A DNA stretch of 64,000 nt from Gari tellinella (taxonomy: Eukaryota > Mollusca > Bivalvia > Cardiida > Psammobiidae), in assembly GCA_922989275.2 (NCBI GenBank), contig OV277858.1:2728001-2792000 (forward strand). Reading direction: 5' to 3'. The stretch's first letter is position 1; every line of letters begins with the position of its first letter. A model generated the notes under the pieces. That model did no database searches. It saw only the letters and a list, made by a program, of their open reading frames with translations, and was not told where the DNA came from. Below, one piece after another: positions 19,305 through 30,037 of the stretch. A program made the position numbers and the translations under genes.

Positions 19305-20467
19305 GTAAGTTTTTGACGCTTTATCACACACTATGTAGCATATGTCTAGTTATTTGATTTAATTTATTTTTCTGCAATCTATCTTTGGTTGGTTTGCAAT
19401 GTTGTCCGTTGACGTGCACACTTATCGACGTGTCGGACTGTCCGGGCGTCAAACTGTTTATAACTACTGGTGGGTGGGGGGACGGAGAAGTTCCACTTGA
19501 AGTCTTGAGAATATCTGTGAGGTAGGCCCCTATGTAGGAGGCTCTTCCGCTTTATGTAAAAATCAACAAACGTATATTGTACCTGTTGAAATATAGAATG
19601 TTGATCTACATTTCTTTGAAATATTTGAGACTGTAAATATTTATGGCGCCGGCACATACTCTTCAATTATGAAGGAGTGTTGTACATATGATCTCTACAT
19701 CTACATGGTACGTCGTCACAGTCACACTTGACTATTACGCGACGGGTGGTTGTCAGAAGAAATAAGATGATGATGATGATGATGATGAAAAAATAGAGCT
19801 AACAGTCATAATATTATATTTGGAAGCCTAAATGTGCCTTCAAATCTGACCAAAATAGCTATAAATTCAAAGAAATGGAGATAATCTGCGACTTCTGACG
19901 TTTATGTTTGAATAAGGCGAATGTGTTCACTAAATAAGCTGATTTCACTTCCGGTTCCGGTTTCACCAGCAATGGACGGGCTTTCTTGAGGAGAGAGAAA
20001 TTGGAGAAGAAAATCTGGATGCATCTACGATATTGATCATCATCTAGTGTTTTAAATTAGTGGAAAAGGAGCATAATATGCTGCTTTAATTAACTGCAGT
20101 TGTTTATTTGGGAACTTTCGGAGAAATGAGTTGAAAATTAAGTTTTGGGGAAAGCATACGGCATGGTCTTTGGCGCAATTTAGAACAGCCATTCCAAATT
20201 CGAAATTTCTTGTTTATATCACATTATCTAAATATTTAAGTAATTACCTTTAATATCCTACCAATATCATAGTCCACATTAACAATTATCGCCATTATTA
20301 TTGGCTTGGGTAAATAATTTACTTAGCGTCGCTAGTGTGGGTGCCTAACCTCCGATGAATATTGTCAGATTCCATTTTTGATTCCATTGTAAGACGAGCA
20401 GACTTGTCCGCCTTTTGATCCTTGAAATTCTCACGTTATAGCTTTTTTGTGTGGTTGTATAAATTAT

Positions 20468-21430
20468 GGTAGTGACTAGGGGTACGTGACCGTACCTCTA
20501 ATATTTGAAATTAGCGGTACGGTCACGTACCCCTAGCGAGCCCTGTGAGGGCTGACTAGGGGTACGTGAGTCCATAACACTGTATAGCAACACTTTATTG
20601 TGTCTGCAGATATGTTAATAGCGATGCTAATGTTAATAATATCTCATTTCAACCTTCTATTCTGACTGTTTAACGCAGAAAAGCAACAAAAAAAATAATC
20701 CAAAAATAATTTCCAATCGGCATTTTTTTCACGGCAGCGAAAACTATACCTATGAATAAAGAACGTTCACACATTTTTACAAACATGTATAAATATCCAA
20801 TACCAGCCTTGTTTAGAATAAATGCACTGTTTTAATTGCGATCAGTTATCAAACGTGTTTTACGAGTTGATTTGTGTAGGTCATTAACCAGCAAACTTGG
20901 GTACCGGCAAACTTACATGTTTGATACTTGATTGGAGCCGAAGCTTCGATATTTTTTATTTTCTTAGATCTACCACTTTATATTCATCGCTAAGTTAGGA
21001 AGGCACATCAGCAGTAGTTTCTTACAAGCTTATTGTATTAATTAAGTTACCATTGAATCAAAATTTTAAGAAAAAAACTTAACATTGGTCACGGATTTTC
21101 AGATATCGGGCGTATCTGACGATAATTAACCCAATTCATGTATGCGGAATACATCTATTCTCATCGCTGCCGGTGAGAACAAGTTGGGTGGGGAATATTT
21201 GTCGAAGTTTCTTTGTTTTTCTCCATTAAATATCCACAAGATAAGGTAGAAATGAGAGATTATTAATATTAGCATCAATAAAACGTATCTGCAGGCAAAT
21301 TAATATGTTGCTACATAGTTTAAATGACTCACGTACCCCTAGTCAACCCTCACAGGGCTCGCTAGGGGTACGTGACCGTACCGCTAATCACTAATATTAG
21401 AGGTACGGTCACGTACCCCTAGTCACTACC
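20468..21430. mobile_element. Mutator-like MITE with about 100-bp inverted repeats
   Basis: Target duplication ATAAATTAT at 20,459-20,467 and 21,431-21,439 (9 bp). Inverted repeats start GGTAGTGACTAGGGGTACG and extend about 100 bases on each side. Each repeat is itself nearly palindromic (GGGGTACGTGACCGTAC ... GTACGGTCACGTACCCC). The 750-base core shows no transposase frame. Long inverted repeats plus a 9-bp duplication are characteristic of Mutator-type transposons; a solo relic is at 1,497. Confidence 0.85.
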
Positions 21431-21663
21431 ATAAATTATCATAATCTTGTTGTTGGGAGCATTTCAGGGACCAGAAGGTAGGAGAGTTTAATTTCGTTGT
21501 ATTTCCATGTAAATATATTGTCTTTTAATAGATAATCTTTTTAGTAAGAGCTGCAACTCTTTTTTACTACACCAACAGGAACTTTTATACTTATTATTTT
21601 AAATTGTTGAACATACCAAAGAAAAAAAAAGTATCATGTGAACAGAATACAATTAAAGCCCCA

Positions 21664-21717
21664 GAAGGCTACTTATGTAGGAGTGACGATCTGACGTACC
21701 CTACAGACAGTGCCTTC
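21664..21717 (+). other. 5' member of the conserved hairpin family
   Basis: Outer stem GAAGGC / GCCTTC, inner stem TGTAGG / CCTACA, loop of exactly 18 nt (AGTGACGATCTGACGTAC). The loop matches the array downstream (TGTGACAATCTGATGTAC) except at four places, two of which turn the inner ACA/TGT pairing into ACG/CGT. It lies about 290 bases before the esterase start codon, so it would be in the 5' leader of the retrotransposon RNA. Confidence 0.7.
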
Positions 21718-22004
21718 TCCATGCCCGTGGGATTGTGATACTTAATTTGTTTATCATATTTTTTCCGTAAGAAATTCATCTTATTTTTCACATGGGGAGT
21801 TCCATCCATTCCATATAAAAAATTATTTTTTTGGGTATCATATCAGGAATTGCTCAGGCCGAAATCCTATAAATATCAGGATAATATTTGTGTTGCATAA
21901 TAGTTAAAACTGTTTAAAATTTCTCATTAATAATGTGAGTAACCTGCTCATTTTTTCTCATTGAATAACGTCTGTTCTGGTCTGGTTTGTCCCTCCTGTA
22001 TTGC

Positions 22005-22721
22005 ATGGATTGTCTGCAAATCAAAGAGGTTGAAGATTTTTTGAGTAGGGAGCTGAACAGAGAGTTAGTATCAGAGTACGAACGTGTTGTAATCCTGAGC
22101 GACAGCAAGGGAAGATACCTAGAGGCCGAGTTTGGCGACCTACTCCACAAACCTACTGAAGTACTTTGGTGGACCTGTAGTGGCAGGGACACCAAAGCAG
22201 GTGTTAAATACTTGGTGGAGAATATTCACAAAATCAGGGACGGAAAAAAAACTAAAGTATTGTTCTGGCACTTTACATGCAACGTGACTAAAAAAATTGA
22301 CAGACTAATTTTTCCAAGATATACCAACAGTGACGACTTGACCAACTTCATTCAACCACATTTAGATACGTTAGTTACAATTCATCAGACAGAAAAGGAC
22401 ATTGACATTGGGATTTTAGAAACACCGCCAGTATTTACAAGGGAATGGAATAGGGGGAAGGACGCAACAGACTGGGAAATCACCGACGATACGGACCTAC
22501 ATAACCAAATTTCGGACCTTAATGACTTAATAGTTCAGACCAACAGTAATTTGCAATTTCGATCTCCAAGATTCACCATTGACTTTGTCCATAGGAGGAA
22601 AAACAAAAAATCACAAACAAAAATTAAACTTAACCCAATACTCTTAAAGGACGGGGTGCATCCTGTTGGAATTGTGGCAAAAAAATGGTTAGTCAAAATT
22701 CTTCAATCAATCTCTAAGTAG
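22005..22721 (+). CDS. SGNH-hydrolase-like esterase ORF of the CR1-like element
   Basis: 238 codons from the first ATG. Residues about 27-40 read RVVILSDSKGRYLE, where DSKG resembles the block I nucleophile motif (GDS-like) of SGNH hydrolases. Near the C-terminus LKDGVHP gives the block V D-x-x-H pair. Between them the protein has no membrane segment. Esterase modules occur in ORF1 of several CR1-type elements as part of a longer protein; here it is a separate upstream ORF, followed after 22 bases by the hairpin array. The frame is intact, unlike the rest of the element. Catalytic activity is inferred only. Confidence 0.7.
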   Translation: MDCLQIKEVEDFLSRELNRELVSEYERVVILSDSKGRYLEAEFGDLLHKPTEVLWWTCSGRDTKAGVKYLVENIHKIRDGKKTKVLFWHFTCNVTKKIDRLIFPRYTNSDDLTNFIQPHLDTLVTIHQTEKDIDIGILETPPVFTREWNRGKDATDWEITDDTDLHNQISDLNDLIVQTNSNLQFRSPRFTIDFVHRRKNKKSQTKIKLNPILLKDGVHPVGIVAKKWLVKILQSISK

Positions 22722-22743
22722 TTCATTAATAAATATCTCAGCT

Positions 22744-23173
22744 CTCAGTGTGTGACAATCTGATGTACCACTGAGCTAAATTCAATAAATTCCTAGGTAG
22801 TTCAACAAATTAATATCCAAGTTCTCAGTGTGTGACAATCTGATGTACCTCTGAGCCAATTTCAATCTTATTAGGTTTCTGTTGGGTGGAGGAGCGTGTC
22901 TTGTGGTATGCAGTGACTAGATAGTGGCAATAATTAAAAACTAGATAGGGTAGGTTGTCAGGGTGTGTGACAATCAGATGTACCACCTATCCAGTATTGA
23001 AGTAGGAATAATAACCCATACATCCTAATTCTATGGAAACCGTACACAATCTGATGTACCACTGGTTTTTTCAATTAAAATAGTCCTCATGTCTAGTGTG
23101 TGACAATCAGATGTACCACTATCCTAACTAAGTTAAATTATATTCAGTGTGTGACAAACTGTTGTACCACTGA
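22744..23173 (+). other. Array of six covarying hairpins with an invariant 18-nt loop
   Basis: Hairpins (stem 5'/3'): 22,744-22,775 CTCAGTG/CACTGAG; 22,824-22,855 CTCAGTG/CTCTGAG; 22,962-22,987 GGTG/CACC; 23,037-23,068 AAACC/GGTTT; 23,094-23,121 TAGTG/CACTA; 23,144-23,173 TCAGTG/CACTGA. Five of the six have an 18-nt loop of form TGTGACAATCWGATGTAC (the sixth differs at three bases); the fourth uses GTACA/TGTAC instead. Stem sequences differ while pairing is kept. They lie between the esterase stop and the ORF1 start. The first two are part of an 80-bp tandem duplication. Function unknown; candidates are a protein-binding site or control of translation of ORF1. Confidence 0.75.
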
Positions 23174-23178
23174 GATCA

Positions 23179-24696
23179 TTGGAAACCGCTATAAATATGG
23201 CCACAGGGGGCGACTTTGTGCACAGCACCCCTATATCTAAAAAAGAGTCACAAAACAGACAGGCCGGAACAGAGAGACGACTGTCTTTCTTAAATGCTGA
23301 GTATCAGAGACTCAGAGACTCTGAATCTCTAGAAACTTTTAAAAGGACACTGAAAACACACTTCTTCGTGCAAATACATGGACAATAAATGTCATATTGA
23401 CTGTGTATATGTAGAAATATATTTTTATTCCTGACTAGACAGAATTATATTTGTTTTATATAACTGCCAATATGCCATCTTTAAATGTAGTTATGCCTGT
23501 TTTAATGATTTATTTATTTAATTAATTATTTTTATAACGCAATGATTATGCTTTAAACTGTATAGGTAGTCTTATGAAATGTTTATTTTAATTGTTACTC
23601 TCATTTCATGTTTTATTTGTGTTTTTATAATTGTAAAGCACTTTTGAACGTATGATTATATATGAAAAAAGTGCTATATAAATATGGTATATAATAATAA
23701 TAATAATAATAGTATGAGGCCAAAAGAAAAAGACTTTTAAGCCCAGAAAGTAGCAATACATGTGCAAAATGTGATCAGGATTTGAACGAAAATGCAGTTG
23801 AGTGTGAGAACTGCAACATGAAATTCTGTGTTAAATGCACAGGGATGTCTCTGGTTGCTCTGAAAATAATACAAAACGGAGATATTCCGGATTACCATTA
23901 CCATTGTAAGTGGTGTAAAACAACCATGCCAACCCTAGAAAAAATAGACAAGAAGCTTACACTGATGAATAATCAAAACGAGGCAAGACTAAGGGAAATG
24001 GAGGAAAGAATAAGAGGCATTGATATGAAAACGGATGAAAGGATTCATGATAAGATGAAGGATACCAAATCTGAAATCCTGAGTGGTATCGATGACAGAA
24101 TTAGGCAAGTAGTAGACGAAAGAACCAAAGAAATGGATAACAGAAGAAGAAGAGAACTGAACATAATGGTCTTCAACCTGCCAGAAGGTAGAAACTTAGA
24201 AGGATTACATAATAAACAAGAAGACGAGGAAGCCTTGAAATCTATTTCAGAAAGTATAGGATTAGATGACCTTAATATTTTAACTAATTTTAGGCTAGGA
24301 AAGAAATTGCCCAATAAAATTAGACCATTAAAAGTAGTCCTGCACGAACATAAACAAAGGAAATTCCTACTTGAGAACACAAAAGAAATAAAAAATAAAG
24401 CTTCAGGTAACTATAAAAGAGTTGTTTTTTTCAAGGACCTGACGGATGAACAAAGAAAGGAAAGGCGTGATAAAAGAGCAATGAAGGCTAATCCGGAAAC
24501 GGATATGGACCAGGATGATCCAGTTGCTACACCAACCAGAGAGGATAGAGTCTTATCCCAACAGTTAGAAATAACGAGGATCCATAGTGATTTATCGCAT
24601 GAAGCTTTGGATCCCTTCGAGGAGGATACTTTGCTAGAGGATAGCTCTGTACAGGATCAAACTGTTCTGGGGGGTATCCCCATGAACATGGCCTGA
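23179..24696 (+). pseudogene. ORF1 (PHD finger, coiled coil, RRM-like), split by a nested insertion
   Basis: Starts at ATG 23,179 six bases after the last hairpin (a second ATG is at 23,197), reads 43 codons, is interrupted at 23,308-23,710, and resumes in the same frame. Without the insertion the junction reads NAEY-EAKRKR. The resumed part has CAKC, CENC, CVKC and HYHCKWC, a C4HC3-like PHD finger, then an acidic/basic heptad-rich helix (about residues 110-190 of the joined protein), then RELNIMVFNLPE with LTNFRLGK, the RRM-like nucleic-acid-binding core of LINE ORF1 proteins. Ends TGA at 24,694. Such proteins coat the element RNA. Confidence 0.75.
23308..23710 (+). mobile_element. 5'-truncated LINE tail nested in ORF1
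   Basis: Flanked by AGTATCAG (23,300-23,307) and AGTATGAG (23,711-23,718), an 8-bp target duplication with one change. It begins with the C-terminal codons of a reverse-transcriptase ORF (SLETFKRTLKTHFF, stop at 23,386). The 3' region has AAAGCACTTTTGAACG and AAAGTGCTATATAAAT, a hairpin-forming pair usual at L2/CR1-like 3' ends, and the tail is (AAT)n. Length is 403 bases. It must be younger than the host element. Confidence 0.8.
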
Positions 24697-24742
24697 AATG
24701 TGACCGCAACAATGCATGTTAGCAGTGGACTCGGTCATGTGA

Positions 24743-27742
24743 CCAAGCCTAAATGTGGTCAATGAGTGTTTTAAAGATGTAAATACGGGTAAAAGTTTTA
24801 AAATTCTTCAAAGTCATGCCATTAAGTATTCCAGAGACAGACTCAAAGTATTATATACTAATGCTGAATTGGACTGTATTACAAAAGAGACTAAATCTGA
24901 CATTCTGGCAATCACAGAAGTATTTCCAAAATTCTCAAGAAATCCCTGCAAACAGGAGGAAATTTATAAACTCCAAGACTATAAAATGTTTTTGTCTAGC
25001 CCAGAAAAAGGGAGAGGTATAGCCTTATACATTAATAAGAACTTAAAGGCAAGTGAAATTGATTTTGAAATCGAGTTTAAGGAGTCACTATGGATTGAAA
25101 TTCTAATGGCTGAAAATGAGAAATTACTTATAGGGTGTATATACAGAAGCCCAAATAGTGACGACAGAAATAACGATAAATTATTAGAACTGTTGAAAAT
25201 AGCTAATGAAAGAACATATTCAAATATTTTAGTGATAGGAGACTTCAATTTCAGAGAAATTAACTGGGACTTGTGGTCTACTGATAAGGGGCCAAATCAT
25301 ATAGATTTTAGATTCTTGGAGGGTGTGAAGGACCTGTATTTGCATCAACATGTTAAAGAATTCACCAGATTCAGAGAGGGAAATAAACCTTCATTACTAG
25401 ACTTGATTTTCACAAATGAAGAAAACATGATTGATGAAATCAGCTTTAAACCTGGGATTGGTAAAAGTGACCATGTGGTTATAGATTTTGAATTGATATG
25501 TAAAACAGTTTGTAAGAGTGATATCTCTCCAAAATATCAGTATAGGAGGGGAAATTACAATTCCATTTCTAGTGAACTGGAAAAAACAGATTGGGGAAAA
25601 CTAGAAGACATAGGGGTTCAGATGGCTTGGGAGTTATTAGCAGAACAAATTTCCATTTTGATAGAAAAAAACATTCCATTAAGCTCTAACTCTGCAAGGC
25701 ATAAGAACCCATATGTTGATAGTGAAACCAAGGCTGCCATTAAGAAAAAGCACACAAAATGGGTGAAATACTCTCACTGTAGAAATCACTTAACGTTTAA
25801 GGAATATAAAGAAGCAAGAAACAGGGTAAGTTATCACATCAGGAAATCTAAATATAAATATGAAAAAAATATTGCTGAAAATGTCAAAACTAATCCAAAA
25901 CAATTTTGGAAATATGTCCGATCGAAAACAAAAACACCTTCAGGAGTTGATACTATTGAAATAGATGGAGTAAATGTAGAGGATAACACAAAAATAGCGG
26001 AGGCCTTTAACAATTATTTTGTATCAGTATTCACATTAGAAGTTACACCAATTCCAAAAGCGTAGGTCAAAACAGAAATTCTACTTTGTGATTTGGACTT
26101 GTCTGAGGATGCAGTTTTATCTGTCATACAGCAAATTAACCCAAATAAGGCTCAGGGACCTGATGGTATTCACCCAAAGGTATTATATGAGTGCAGGAAT
26201 TCATTAGTGAAGCCATTACATATGTTGTTCAGCAAATCTATCATAGAGGGTAAACTCCCTAAAGAATGGAAGCATGCAAACGTAAGCACGATATATAAGG
26301 CAGGTAAAAAACAAAAGGTAGAAAATTACAGGCCAATAAGCGTCACCTCAATTTGTTGTAGGGTAATGGAAAAATTAGTCAGAAACGCAATAGTGGAACA
26401 TTTAGAATGTAATAATCTCTTATCAAGTTATCAACATGGTTTTAGGTCTAGACGTTCATGTATAACGCAACTATTAGAGTGCATAGAAGAGTGGTCTACT
26501 GCAATAGATGAGAGTAAGGAAATTGACATCATTTACTTAGACTTCAAATCAGCTTTCGATAAGGTTCCACATAAAAGACTCTTGGAAAAAATTCATTGTT
26601 TTGGAATTAGGGGCAAAATATATAAATGGTTAGAGAACTTCCTTGAGGATAGGTTTTAAAGAGTAGTCGTAGGGGGAGATAAATCATCATGGCAGAGAGT
26701 TACCAGTGGAGTTCCTCAAGGAAGTGTGTTAGGGCCAGTTTTGTTCCTGATTTATATCAATGACCTGCCTGATATTATTGATATGACACTCAAGCTTTTT
26801 GCTGATGACACCAAATTATATTCTATACATAATAATCCAGAAGATGAGGATAGGTTACAAAATAGTATTTTCGATGCTTGTTCCTGGTCAAAGAAATGGC
26901 AAATGACCTTTAACACTAAGAAGTGCAAATCGATGCACATTGGTAGGACTAGTGCAAGTGAATATTTCATGAAATCCACAAACGATAACATAGTCAAAAT
27001 AAATCAAGTTACGCAAGAAAAAGATTTAGGAGTAGAGTTTGACTGCAAGTTAAAGTTTGATAAACACATATATTTAAAGATAAACAAAGCAAACAGTATT
27101 TTGGGATTAATCGCTAAAACATTCACATGTGTAACAGGAGACATGTTCCTCCACCTATACAAGGCACTAGTTAGACCGCATCTAGAGTATGCTTCATCAA
27201 TATGGTCGCCACACTATAAGAAATACAGGATAGCAATAGAAAATGTTCAGCGCCGTGCAACTAGATTATTAAAGAATATGGAAGGTCGTAGTTACAGTGA
27301 GCGGTTGAGGCAACTTGGCATTCCAACCCTGGAGTACAGGAGGGACAGAGCAGATCTGATACAGACATACAAATTACTAAATGGTTTAGATGTAACTTCT
27401 GTAGATTTACTTAAACTAAAAGGTGACACCAGTACTAGAGGTAACAAACTCAAACTATGTAAACCTAGAGCAAGAACTGAGCTAAAAAGGGGGGTGTTTA
27501 GTCATAGAGTAGTGGATAAATGGAACTCCCTTCCAGATATGGTAGTAGAGGCACCCACTCTTACTACATTTAAATCTAGGTTGAATAGTCACTGGGGGGT
27601 CACCTACAAATTTGATGCCAATTGCTACCACCCATACGTAACAGACAAGGGACCCCCTAAGCACTCGGTGAATGCAATGCCCTGGCTAAAGCCCCGATCT
27701 CAATGTCCCGGTGCTGGCCCCGGTACGTCCCGGTTGAGATAG
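24743..27742 (+). pseudogene. ORF2: endonuclease and reverse transcriptase with two nonsense codons
   Basis: A single frame from just after a TGA (24,740) to the stop at 27,740-27,742, broken only by TAG 26,063-26,065 and TAA 26,657-26,659. Endonuclease (AP-type) motifs: YTNA, ITEVFP, IYRSPN, GDFNFREINWD and GKSDH. Reverse transcriptase: GPDGIHPKVL, YRPIS, HGFRSRRSC, YLDFKSAFDKV, GVPQGSVLGP, FADDTKLY (about 26,795-26,818). A C-terminal WSPHYKK region follows. No ATG is found at the expected start, so the start codon is lost or translation begins otherwise. The stretch between YTNA and ITEV seems short, hinting at a small in-frame deletion. The protein would nick DNA and copy the RNA at the nick. 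Confidence 0.85.
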
Positions 27743-29757
27743 CCGGTGGACTTGGATGAGCCGGGGGCGGTTTTTATGAAAAAATAAATTGCGATCTCAC
27801 ATTCCCGGTGTCTCCCCTGGTGGAGCACCGGTTATGAAGCCGGACCTTCCTGGTGAGTTTCCAGTTTGGCCCGGCGTAGTTACGGTGCAGGGCCGGTCTG
27901 TTCCCGGTTAACCCCGGTATAATAATAACACGGTGTAACCCCAGCCATCGCCGGTGGTATCTGGATGACCACTGGTGTTGTCCCGATCAACCCCGGTTGT
28001 TCACCGGTGACGTGCCGGTGTTCGCCGGAAAGGACATAAACCGGGGCGGACGTGAATTAGTATCAATTCTCTTTTGTCTCTCGGGGTATATGAGATGAAA
28101 TACAAAGGAAATGCAATAAAACAGAACATAATAATGTTGTAGACTGTTCAAACTTCATTTTAATATGAGTTTCAAACAGTTTGCCCGGCGTCTGATCTGG
28201 TTACATACTGTTTGTTACAATGACTTTAGCCTGAAGCCGTTTATTTATAGAGAAAAACTTTCGTTTTTAAATATTAGATTTACCCTATACAATAGAGAGG
28301 ACGATATTATTTCCTATTTAAACACAGACGAAACAGAAACGCTAAAAATAAAATGTAGTAATCTGCATTTTTAGCTCACCTGAGCCAAAGGCTCAAGGTG
28401 AGCTATTGGGATGGCCCTGTGTCCGGCGTCCGTCGTCGTCCGTCGTCGTTAACAATTGCTTCAAATGACATCTCCTCCTATACCGCTTGACAGAATTCAA
28501 CCAAACTTTACAGAAATGTTCCTTGGATCAAGCTCTTTCAAATTTGTTCAAAGAATTAAAAACAATGCAGAAACCAAAGTGAAAAAATAAGGAAATCTTT
28601 AAAAATCTTCTTCTCAAAAACTGCAAGGGCCAGAGCTTAGATATTTGGCACACAGCATCATCTACAGGTCCTCTATCAAGTTTGTTCAAATTATGTCCCT
28701 GGGGTCAAAATTGGCCCCGCCCCGGGGGTCACAGTTTTACATAGAGTTATATAGTGAAATATTCAAACGTCTTCTTCTCTGAAACTAATATGGCCAGAGC
28801 TTTGATACTCGGCATGGTGACACTTCTAGATGTCCTCTACATATTTTGTTCAAATGGTTCCGGTCGGTTGCATAAGTAGGTCACAGGAGCTAAAAATAGA
28901 TTTTTTCAATGAAAACTTAAAAAATCTTCTTGTCTGAAACTACAAGGGCCAGAGCTTAGATATTTGGCACATAGCATCATCTACAGGTCCTCTATCAAGT
29001 TTGTTCAAATTATGTCTCTGGGGTCAAAATTGGCCCCGCCCCGGGGGTCACAGTTTTACATAGAGTTATATAGTGAAATATTCAAACGTCTTCTTCTCTG
29101 AAACTAATATGGCCAGAGCTTTGATATTCATCATGGTGATACTTCTAGATGTCCTTTACATATTTTGTTCAAATGGTTCCGGTCGGTTGCATAAGTAGGT
29201 CACAGGAACTAAAAATAGATTTTTTCAATGAAAACTTAAAAAAAATATTCTTGTCTAAAACCCTAGTATCCTGATCTTAGATATTTGGCACATAGCATCA
29301 TATACAGGGCCTCTATCAAGATTGTTCAAATTATGCCCCTCAGATAAAAAATGACCCCATCCTGGACATAAGTCATTATCTCCATTTTGTCAGTGATTCT
29401 CAGGTGAGCGAAATATGCCCCTTGGGGCTCTTGTTTAAAAAAAAAATCAAATTTATGCTCGCATATTATATACACCCCGGTTGTTCAGGGTAGAGGCCGG
29501 GAGCTGCCCCGGATGTACTGGTAAAGACCCGGCGTTGCTCTAGCATTCCCCTGACCCTGGATGAAACCGGTTCTGGTTTCTGTCCCGGTGACCCCCGGTT
29601 GTATTAAACATTTTAAAGCATCCGGGGAAGTTAGCCGGTGGAAGCTGGTCGATCCAGGATCGAGCTGGGCGCCGCCAAGGTTGTACTCCAGGTGACTGCC
29701 GGTTTGCTAAACCGGGACTCACGGGGACCCAAACCTGGACAGTGAGATCGTGGCTTA
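27681..29757. mobile_element. CCGG-rich foldback element, copy B, with nested insertion
   Basis: Same block as 1,731-2,690, with the inverted ends GCTAAAGCCCCGATCTCA and (minus strand) CTTAAGCCACGATCTCACTG. It is enlarged by the Helitron-like element at 28,373-29,433 in its AT-rich middle. It keeps about 53 bases (near 28,202-28,255) missing from A. Directly adjoins the ORF2 stop, so it could be the CR1-like 3' UTR instead. Confidence 0.5.
28373..29433 (+). mobile_element. Helitron-like element, AGCTCACC family (GAGCC/GGCTC subfamily), copy B only
   Basis: Copy A shows the empty site: GCATTTTTAAAAAAAA. Inserted: AGCTCACCTGAGCC-aaa-GGCTCAAGGTGAGCT hairpin, a CGTCCGTCGTCG tract, two and a half core units of about 300 bases (GGGCCAGAGCTTAGATATTT, GGTCACAGGAGCTAAAAATA), subterminal CAGGTGAGCGA, and the 3' hairpin GCCCCTTGGGGC then TCTTGTT. 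No target duplication. Confidence 0.8.
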
Positions 29758-30037
29758 AGCATCAGCTACGGGCTAATCCTAGCGTATTACAGTCTGGTTT
29801 GTTTGCTGTTAACTGAATTAGCAACATCACTTTTTGTCATAAAACAGTTAAATATAGATTTGAGAAGAACTTATTACAAACCATGCCTTATTTATACTAT
29901 GATGAGGTTGACAGGCTATCTCTAGATATGACCAAAAATCGCAGTTAAATGCACTCGGACCCGTACACATTTCTGGTATTTGAGTAGGTTTCCCTGGTCA
30001 AACAATGCAGCGAAAGGGCCATTTTAAAAACAAAATC

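Follow-up and report, generated by a model that had tools for sequence, protein, structure and literature searches.

A loop-conserved RNA hairpin repeated in the leader and between ORFA and ORF1 of SGNH-ORF-bearing LINEs in the bivalve Gari tellinella

Cis preference, by which a LINE protein picks out its own RNA, has to our knowledge found little explanation outside the 3' tail of the element. The closest described systems are the stringent LINEs ZfL2-1 and ZfL2-2 of zebrafish, in which, according to the accessible part of the report, a stem-loop in the 3' tail is read by ORF2p and needed for retrotransposition (PMC4176376); the recognition described there for LINE 3' tails is specific for the loop and tolerant of the stem. 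ZfL2-1 also encodes an SGNH esterase, as stated in the available sections of a second paper (PMC3905857), and a further paper deals with a stem-loop in the 3' UTR of L1 and Alu. Furthermore, CR1/L2 LINEs bearing an esterase and a PHD domain have been described in outline (PMC4120745, PMC5408684), esterase ORF1s being reported only in two vertebrate groups in the portion of the first of these papers that was available.

Here we analysed a 64-kb stretch of the genome of Gari tellinella (hereafter, the window) that contains a three-ORF LINE with ORFA, ORF1 and ORF2. A single hairpin in its leader and six more between the ORFA stop (22721) and the ORF1 ATG form an array spanning 21663-23174 on the plus strand (Table 1).

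Table 1. Hairpins and open reading frames of the LINE in the window
Feature	Position	Strand	Description
H0, leader hairpin	21663..21718	+	core 21682-21699; inner stem TGTAGG/CCTACA, long outer stem; ACG/CGT in loop (leader subtype)
ORFA	22005..22721	+	238 aa; predicted SGNH/GDSL hydrolase fold
H1, hairpin	22744..22775	+	loop from 22751; 7-bp stem CTCAGTG/CACTGAG
H2, hairpin	22824..22855	+	loop from 22831; tandem duplicate of H1; stem with one mismatch
H3, hairpin	22961..22988	+	loop from 22966; stem GGGTG/CACCT
H4, hairpin	23037..23068	+	loop from 23042; divergent; stem AAACC/GGTTT, inner stem GTACA/TGTAC; 28.7 bits
H5, hairpin	23094..23121	+	loop from 23099; stem TAGTG/CACTA
H6, hairpin	23143..23174	+	loop from 23150; stem TTCAGTG/CACTGAG
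ORF1	23197..24696	+	N-terminal HSTP motif; putative Cys-rich zinc-finger-like part (by reading), coiled coil, RRM, CTD; interrupted by insert
ORF2	24755..27742	+	endonuclease and reverse transcriptase matches; single frame, two internal stops

A Pfam search of ORFA gave no match. Its AlphaFold model (pLDDT 91.2) has GDSL/SGNH esterases among its best PDB matches (probability 1.00, 14-16% identity), and we are confident in the predicted SGNH-hydrolase fold. The start of ORF1 was set at 23197 because its N-terminal HSTP motif recurs, in varied form, in the relatives P0022-P0027. The ORF1 model (pLDDT 77.1, pTM 0.42) includes a coiled coil, finds human LINE-1 ORF1p as its best PDB match (2yko, E 4.1e-5; central domain 2w7a, TM 0.71 by target length) and shows the LINE-1-like architecture of coiled coil, RRM and CTD. 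In Pfam the window ORF1 was without a match, and its relative P0022 matched FYVE only below threshold; in our reading, the Cys-rich start of the protein looks zinc-finger-like and is possibly a PHD. ORF1 is broken at about 23305-23715 by an insert that ends in an ATA repeat and that we take for the 3' end of a second LINE; the 5-bp sequence AGTAT is repeated on its two flanks, at 23300 and 23711. Since ORF1 is interrupted and ORF2 contains two in-frame stops, the window copy is apparently dead; elsewhere in the genome both ORFA and ORF1 occur as open frames.

Matches to ORFA, ORF1 and ORF2 follow one another in the loci L170-L172, so that the SGNH ORF is part of the LINE. Among public proteins, an ORFA relative (P0005, the fourth match) and the top ORF1 (P0022) and ORF2 (P0057) matches come from ENA contigs all of size 6314, and an ORFA (P0003) and an ORF2 (P0059) relative from JGI contigs both of size 7474; these equal sizes suggest that the three ORFs are linked there as well. 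A named ORF1 relative belongs to the clam Ruditapes philippinarum, and relatives of ORFA and ORF2 occur in assemblies named Sedimenticola and Thiodiazotropha, which are bivalve symbionts. Compared with the esterase- and PHD-bearing CR1/L2 LINEs, as far as the accessible texts describe them, the element shares the predicted SGNH fold, an ORF1 with coiled coil, RRM and Cys-rich start, and an endonuclease-reverse transcriptase ORF2, but it has a separate SGNH ORF placed 5' of an ORF1 of another type, a hairpin array between the two, and a bivalve host.

Several other features surround the array. A 117-nt inverted repeat (20500-20616 and 21282-21398, 86% complementary), resembling the ends of a short DNA transposon, lies just 5' of the LINE leader. 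Folding gives a longer and different hairpin at 24698-24740, between ORF1 and ORF2 and directly 5' of the ORF2 frame. A CCGG-rich stretch at 27640-28050, at and after the ORF2 end, probably belongs to the LINE 3' region and is without a hairpin of the type described here, and a tandem repeat with a period of 319 bp occupies 28592-29340.

The positions given in the first-pass annotation hold for all seven hairpins, the leader copy as well as the six inter-ORF ones. Six copies match the 18-nt loop core TGTGACAATCWGATGTAC with at most three mismatches (0.13 expected in shuffles), and the fourth inter-ORF copy, H4, deviates as described, in its first four loop bases. The compensating loop changes it reported, from ACA/TGT to ACG/CGT in the leader copy and to GTACA/TGTAC in H4, are real. 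The distance of six bases that it gave between the last hairpin and the start of ORF1 was wrong, as the ATG stands 22 nt after the last stem base. Folding of the copies suggests, in order, a lower stem, one unpaired 5' base, GU paired with AC, a one-base bulge (G or A), ACA paired with UGU, and a six-base loop. The coat-protein operators of MS2-type phages, which serve in translation control and packaging, have a bulge below a short apical stem, a small specific loop and a variable stem. By analogy, the window hairpins would share the bulge, the short apical stem, the specific loop and the free stem; unlike these operators, they belong to other hosts and proteins, have no coat protein, are unrelated in sequence and come in arrays.

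A covariance model built from the seven copies (R1) found only these seven in the 64 kb, all 5' of ORF1, with no convincing eighth copy in the window (next best E 1.7). Six of them score 42-50 bits, and H4 scores no better than the best decoy (28.4 bits, from 90 of 131 loci, L001-L010 and L012-L091), a comparison that is non-independent in that the model was built from the same copies. Searches with Rfam 15, ribozymes included, gave no family at the gathering threshold in the window and nothing at E up to 5 over the hairpins (20000-30000).

Pairing in the seven copies was evaluated in several ways. At least five contiguous pairs close the 18-nt loop in five of them, a state reached at <1% of window positions; the exceptions are H2, with one pair before a mismatch, and H4, with none in that register. 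Swapping the 3' flanks among copies reduces pairing (own score 86, mean 58), with 32 of 5040 permutations as good, or 7 of 720 when H2 is left out; by folding energy the contrast is weaker (144/5040, and 10/720 without H2). Paired cells amount to 87%, against 76.5% after shuffling (0/500), and 5 of the 11 pairs have changed on both sides, which 8 of 500 shuffles reach. The swap test and the share of paired cells uphold the description of stems that differ yet stay mostly paired. The folding stability of single hairpins is marked in H0 (z -4.27) and not striking in the other six (z -0.4 to -2.3).

The genome (1.6 Gb searched, 80 contigs) contains many relatives of the element, and the hairpin region used as query gave 36 matches in it. 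Our close sample (L140-L169) comprises the best 30 of 150 scored ORFA matches, with ORFA 70-100% identical; these loci are non-independent, many being near-identical copies of a few families, and reach about 1.5 kb past ORFA, ORF2 and the 3' region being covered in the window alone. On 32 loci, R1 gave 199 matches at E up to 0.05. Counted with at most three mismatches, two to nine core copies follow ORFA in all 30 close loci, and 28 have a leader copy, in most about 300 nt before ORFA (793 nt in L165), L146 and L163 having none within 1.5 kb. Placement before ORF1 rests on 26 of the 30 loci, those other than L146, L163, L165 and L168, in which the search did not locate the ORF1 ATG; between families, the distance separating the last core from this ATG ranges from 28 to 72 nt. 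No antisense core copy was found in the 30 loci, and genome-wide the pattern GTGACRANCWGAYGTACC occurs 203 times, against once for the reversed pattern. Beyond this genome, relatives were mostly unmatched in viral contigs, where we read the few single stretches (two, one and at least 120 in separate searches) as chance; contigs of other genomes gave either none or eight single matches in bacterial records, none accepted as relatives, and phage and plasmid collections gave no match.

The copies fall into two subtypes by place. Of the 29 leader copies, 28 have G-C as their loop pair and 1 has G-U, whereas all 163 inter-ORF copies of the 30 loci have A-U, the copies being non-independent; the mixed pair A-C was found in none of the close loci. 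We considered, and rejected, kissing loops through a palindromic loop (ATCWGAT), as the seven copies had suggested, because in the relatives the second loop position is A or C, its would-be partner remaining A in most cases.

As hairpins of this kind recur at corresponding places in close relatives, they are probably tags read by a protein. One possibility is a translational operator, with a protein of the element or the host acting on the hairpins before ORFA and ORF1 to repress or promote (re)initiation, and with packaging secondary or absent. The hairpins do stand upstream of both ORFs, and in the 30 close loci neither ORFA nor the covered stretch of ORF1 contained one. An AUG is present in the core of 148 of the 163 inter-ORF copies and absent from 28 of the 29 leader copies; in the window this core AUG opens short frames, for example AUG-UAC-CAC-UGA. 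However, copy number and distance to the ORF1 ATG vary widely, and avoidance of AUG in the leader, an idea we discarded, is not strict, as the leader loop is without AUG yet four AUGs lie outside it (21664-22004). We regard a purely translational role as rather unlikely. The narrower proposal of the first-pass annotation, reinitiation at ORF1, is weakened by the copy that most loci have about 300 nt before ORFA and by the variable gap to the ORF1 ATG.

We then compared rates of change and pairing across relatives. Between families (5 locus pairs), mismatch is 0.06-0.24 in the core, 0.18-0.41 in the stem and 0.39-0.55 in the spacers, a contrast exaggerated by the anchoring of the comparison on the cores. 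Within families (7 locus pairs) it is 0.00-0.05 in the core and 0.02-0.05 in the spacers: the three pairs of the window's own family show no contrast (0.037-0.046 in the core vs 0.045-0.052), and in the other four the cores are lower than the spacers, on small counts. Among 57 distinct copies, taken from the best 150 of the 199 matches and aligned to fit the structure, 93.6% of the cells are paired (18-49% for slid structures), 7 of 11 pairs have changed on both sides (16/500 shuffles reach 7), and the covariation score is 0.283 against 0.111 in shuffles (0/500). In our in-house G-test in the manner of R-scape, with substitutions re-dealt along a tree built on the same 34 columns, which limits the test, no pair reached E<0.05. 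Under the tree-based null, overall pair retention was 0.936, where the null averaged 0.681 and peaked at 0.845 (0/200), and double compensatory events averaged 2.7 (minimum over reconstructions 0) against 0.41 (maximum 3). The check named in the first-pass annotation, covariation beyond phylogeny, gave a mixed outcome: every single pair failed it, and overall pair retention passed.

These data bear on whether the copies are neutral remains of tandem duplication that pair by chance, a reading for which the non-significant G-test, the lack of slower change of the hairpins in the window's own family and the H1/H2 pair, an 80-bp tandem duplication, can be cited. Duplication with drift, which the first-pass annotation had named as a way in which its proposal could fail, accounts for H1/H2; the remaining window spacers are mutually unlike except for one of 21 pairs (p 0.04), pair retention exceeds the whole null distribution, and the hairpins occupy the same places across families whose spacers align poorly. 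With place conservation and slower cores between families largely refuting it, the neutral reading is hardly credible. It is also highly improbable that the repeats act at the DNA level, as binding sites or promoter units with palindromic flanks. The sites are indeed repeated with a conserved core, and copy number does vary between near relatives with an even 70-nt spacing, as by tandem duplication (seven copies in L149, nine in L160). Nevertheless, the flanks preserve pairing and not sequence, all 30 loci keep the sense orientation, and the paired sites hold 19 G.U against 6 A.C, an excess expected for sense-strand RNA.

Next to the close loci we considered a distant sample of 20 ORFA loci (L170-L189, ORFA 27-43% identical). 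The first-pass annotation had held that relatives lacking the hairpins would speak against it: the 30 close loci keep R1, and the 20 distant loci are without it (best E 3.1), 12 of them carrying another hairpin type at the same places, in the leader or after ORFA. Several have their own repeats at the corresponding place, which fold into hairpins that have a bulge on the 5' side, some 6-7 bp of upper stem and, at the tip, an NNUG tetraloop. The type of L170/L171/L174 has two inter-ORF copies, with a leader copy in L170 and L174; that of L172/L173 has two leader copies and one inter-ORF copy, and that of L183/L187 one and three, respectively. L185 has leader and inter-ORF copies recognised by folding and missed by our descriptor, L184 an inter-ORF one, and L178/L181/L182 share another type, distinct from the NNUG set. 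In the remaining eight (L175, L176, L177, L179, L180, L186, L188 and L189) we found no convincing hairpin type, L186 and L188 giving weak descriptor matches. The leaders of L176 and L177, upstream of ORFA, contain a repeat of no recognisable hairpin type, its copies about 110 nt apart in L176.

Scanning the 20 distant loci with the descriptor gave 17 sense and 0 antisense matches in the spacers (0.65 in shuffles), 16 and 3 in the leaders (1.75), and 0 and 7 inside ORFA (0.6); the descriptor was set after some of the hairpins had been viewed, the shuffles keep single-base composition only, and families are counted repeatedly. By eye, 15 of the 17 spacer and 8 of the 16 leader matches belong to recognisable types, the remainder being chance-like. 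Swapping arms among 13 NNUG hairpins never equalled the observed pairing (0/20000), a value biased by their having been chosen for pairing and by several near copies. In an ORFA tree of 26 rows (the 20 distant and 6 of the 30 close loci), with a midpoint root and a program warning of long branches, the R1 rows cluster (99/100) and join the L170 and L172 groups in a single larger group of 11 rows, all with a hairpin type; 7 of the other 15 have a type and 8 have none. The single control for hairpins in the absence of ORFA was L202, a 1.2-kb stretch that covers the beginning of an ORF1 relative, with no ORFA match nearby, and the sequence 5' of it; it contained no ORFA (best E 3.4), repeated 11-mers or hairpin at the cut-off. 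Considering the place, strand and core kept in 30 loci, the retained pairing, the slower change than in spacers between families, the G.U excess and the analogous hairpins of distant families, a selected RNA structure is well supported.

R1 hairpins have a second carrier. L198-L200 are copies of one repeat (main aligned parts 89.5-95.8% identical) in which an ORF of L200 matches TatD_DNase (E 4.1e-21); tblastn of ORFA, ORF1 and ORF2 in 4 kb of each gave no match. Each copy has two R1 hairpins (L198 1408-1504, L199 2076-2172, L200 1811-1905) and, further along, a hairpin-like motif of the L181 type. In L198 the two hairpins lie within a stretch of about 100 nt that is 81-83% identical to the LINE loci L147/L148. 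L199 differs from L198 at 0 of 70 hairpin sites and 35 of 469 surrounding ones, and from L200 at 1 of 68 and 13 of 475, the second L200 hairpin being short of two bases. L201, which covers the 4 kb upstream of the TatD repeat, has no R1 hairpin. The repeat may be a LINE passenger with a borrowed tag or a mere holder of a LINE fragment. Tentatively, we entertain a wider scheme in which the hairpins would be clade-wide, family-specific RNA address tags, renewed at persisting places as families diverge and each read by the family's own protein, and in which the unrelated TatD repeat would have captured a tag (two hairpins of the window type and one of another family) for carriage by the LINE machinery.

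Hairpins read by a protein typically show themselves by conservation of loop and bulge while the stem is free to vary. The reading that we prefer, and hold with about even confidence, is that the hairpins are family-specific recognition elements of SGNH-ORF LINEs, bound by a protein for ribonucleoprotein assembly and maybe for translation control; the binding, the binder and the purpose are what we infer. Directly observed are the place, strand and copy number of the hairpins, their conservation, the retention of pairs and the change of type between families. In a clade of such LINEs the hairpins would be cis-acting RNA recognition elements, many families having their own type, with one or two in the 5' leader and one to nine between ORFA and ORF1. 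The stems would need pairing and be free in sequence, and specificity would lie in the loop and the adjoining bulge. The candidate binder is an RNA-binding protein made by the element, either its ORF1 protein, which is of LINE-1-like type, or the portion of ORF2p that binds RNA. The match between the ORF1 model and the RNA-binding core of human LINE-1 ORF1p makes the first of these plausible. Occupancy of the array would mark full-length RNA for ribonucleoprotein assembly and might also tune translation of ORFA and ORF1. With copies before both ORFs and with varying number and distance, an assembly platform fits best and a translational operator second.

A different reader would be ORF2p during target-primed reverse transcription, making the hairpins a 5' counterpart of the stringent-LINE 3' stem-loop. 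In the accessible parts of the respective papers, ORF2p of the zebrafish L2 clade reads a loop on a tolerant stem (PMC4176376) and the structure of the RNA 5' end affects insertion by an R2 protein (PMC11331408), both in line with this idea. As in the stringent LINEs, to the extent that the available text describes them, the loop is conserved and element-specific and the stem changes but stays paired (the single-pair G-test being non-significant here); unlike their single hairpin at the 3' end, several stand here 5' of ORF1, on both sides of ORFA, and binding by the cognate ORF2p is putative. Against this reading, R1 found no hairpin of its type in the 3' region of the window's element, and we know of no parallel for an inter-ORF placement of ORF2p-read hairpins. 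Recognition by ORF2p at this step thus appears quite improbable.

Among the matches listed in our literature search, which covered titles and abstract openings with subscription papers mostly outside, there was no report of such an array. Returning to hairpins as recognition elements for ribonucleoprotein assembly, a specific hairpin that is repeated, has natural variants, is replaced by other types and possibly has a hitchhiker makes a system for direct tests of LINE RNA recognition. Moreover, the hairpin families may supply new orthogonal RNA-protein pairs.
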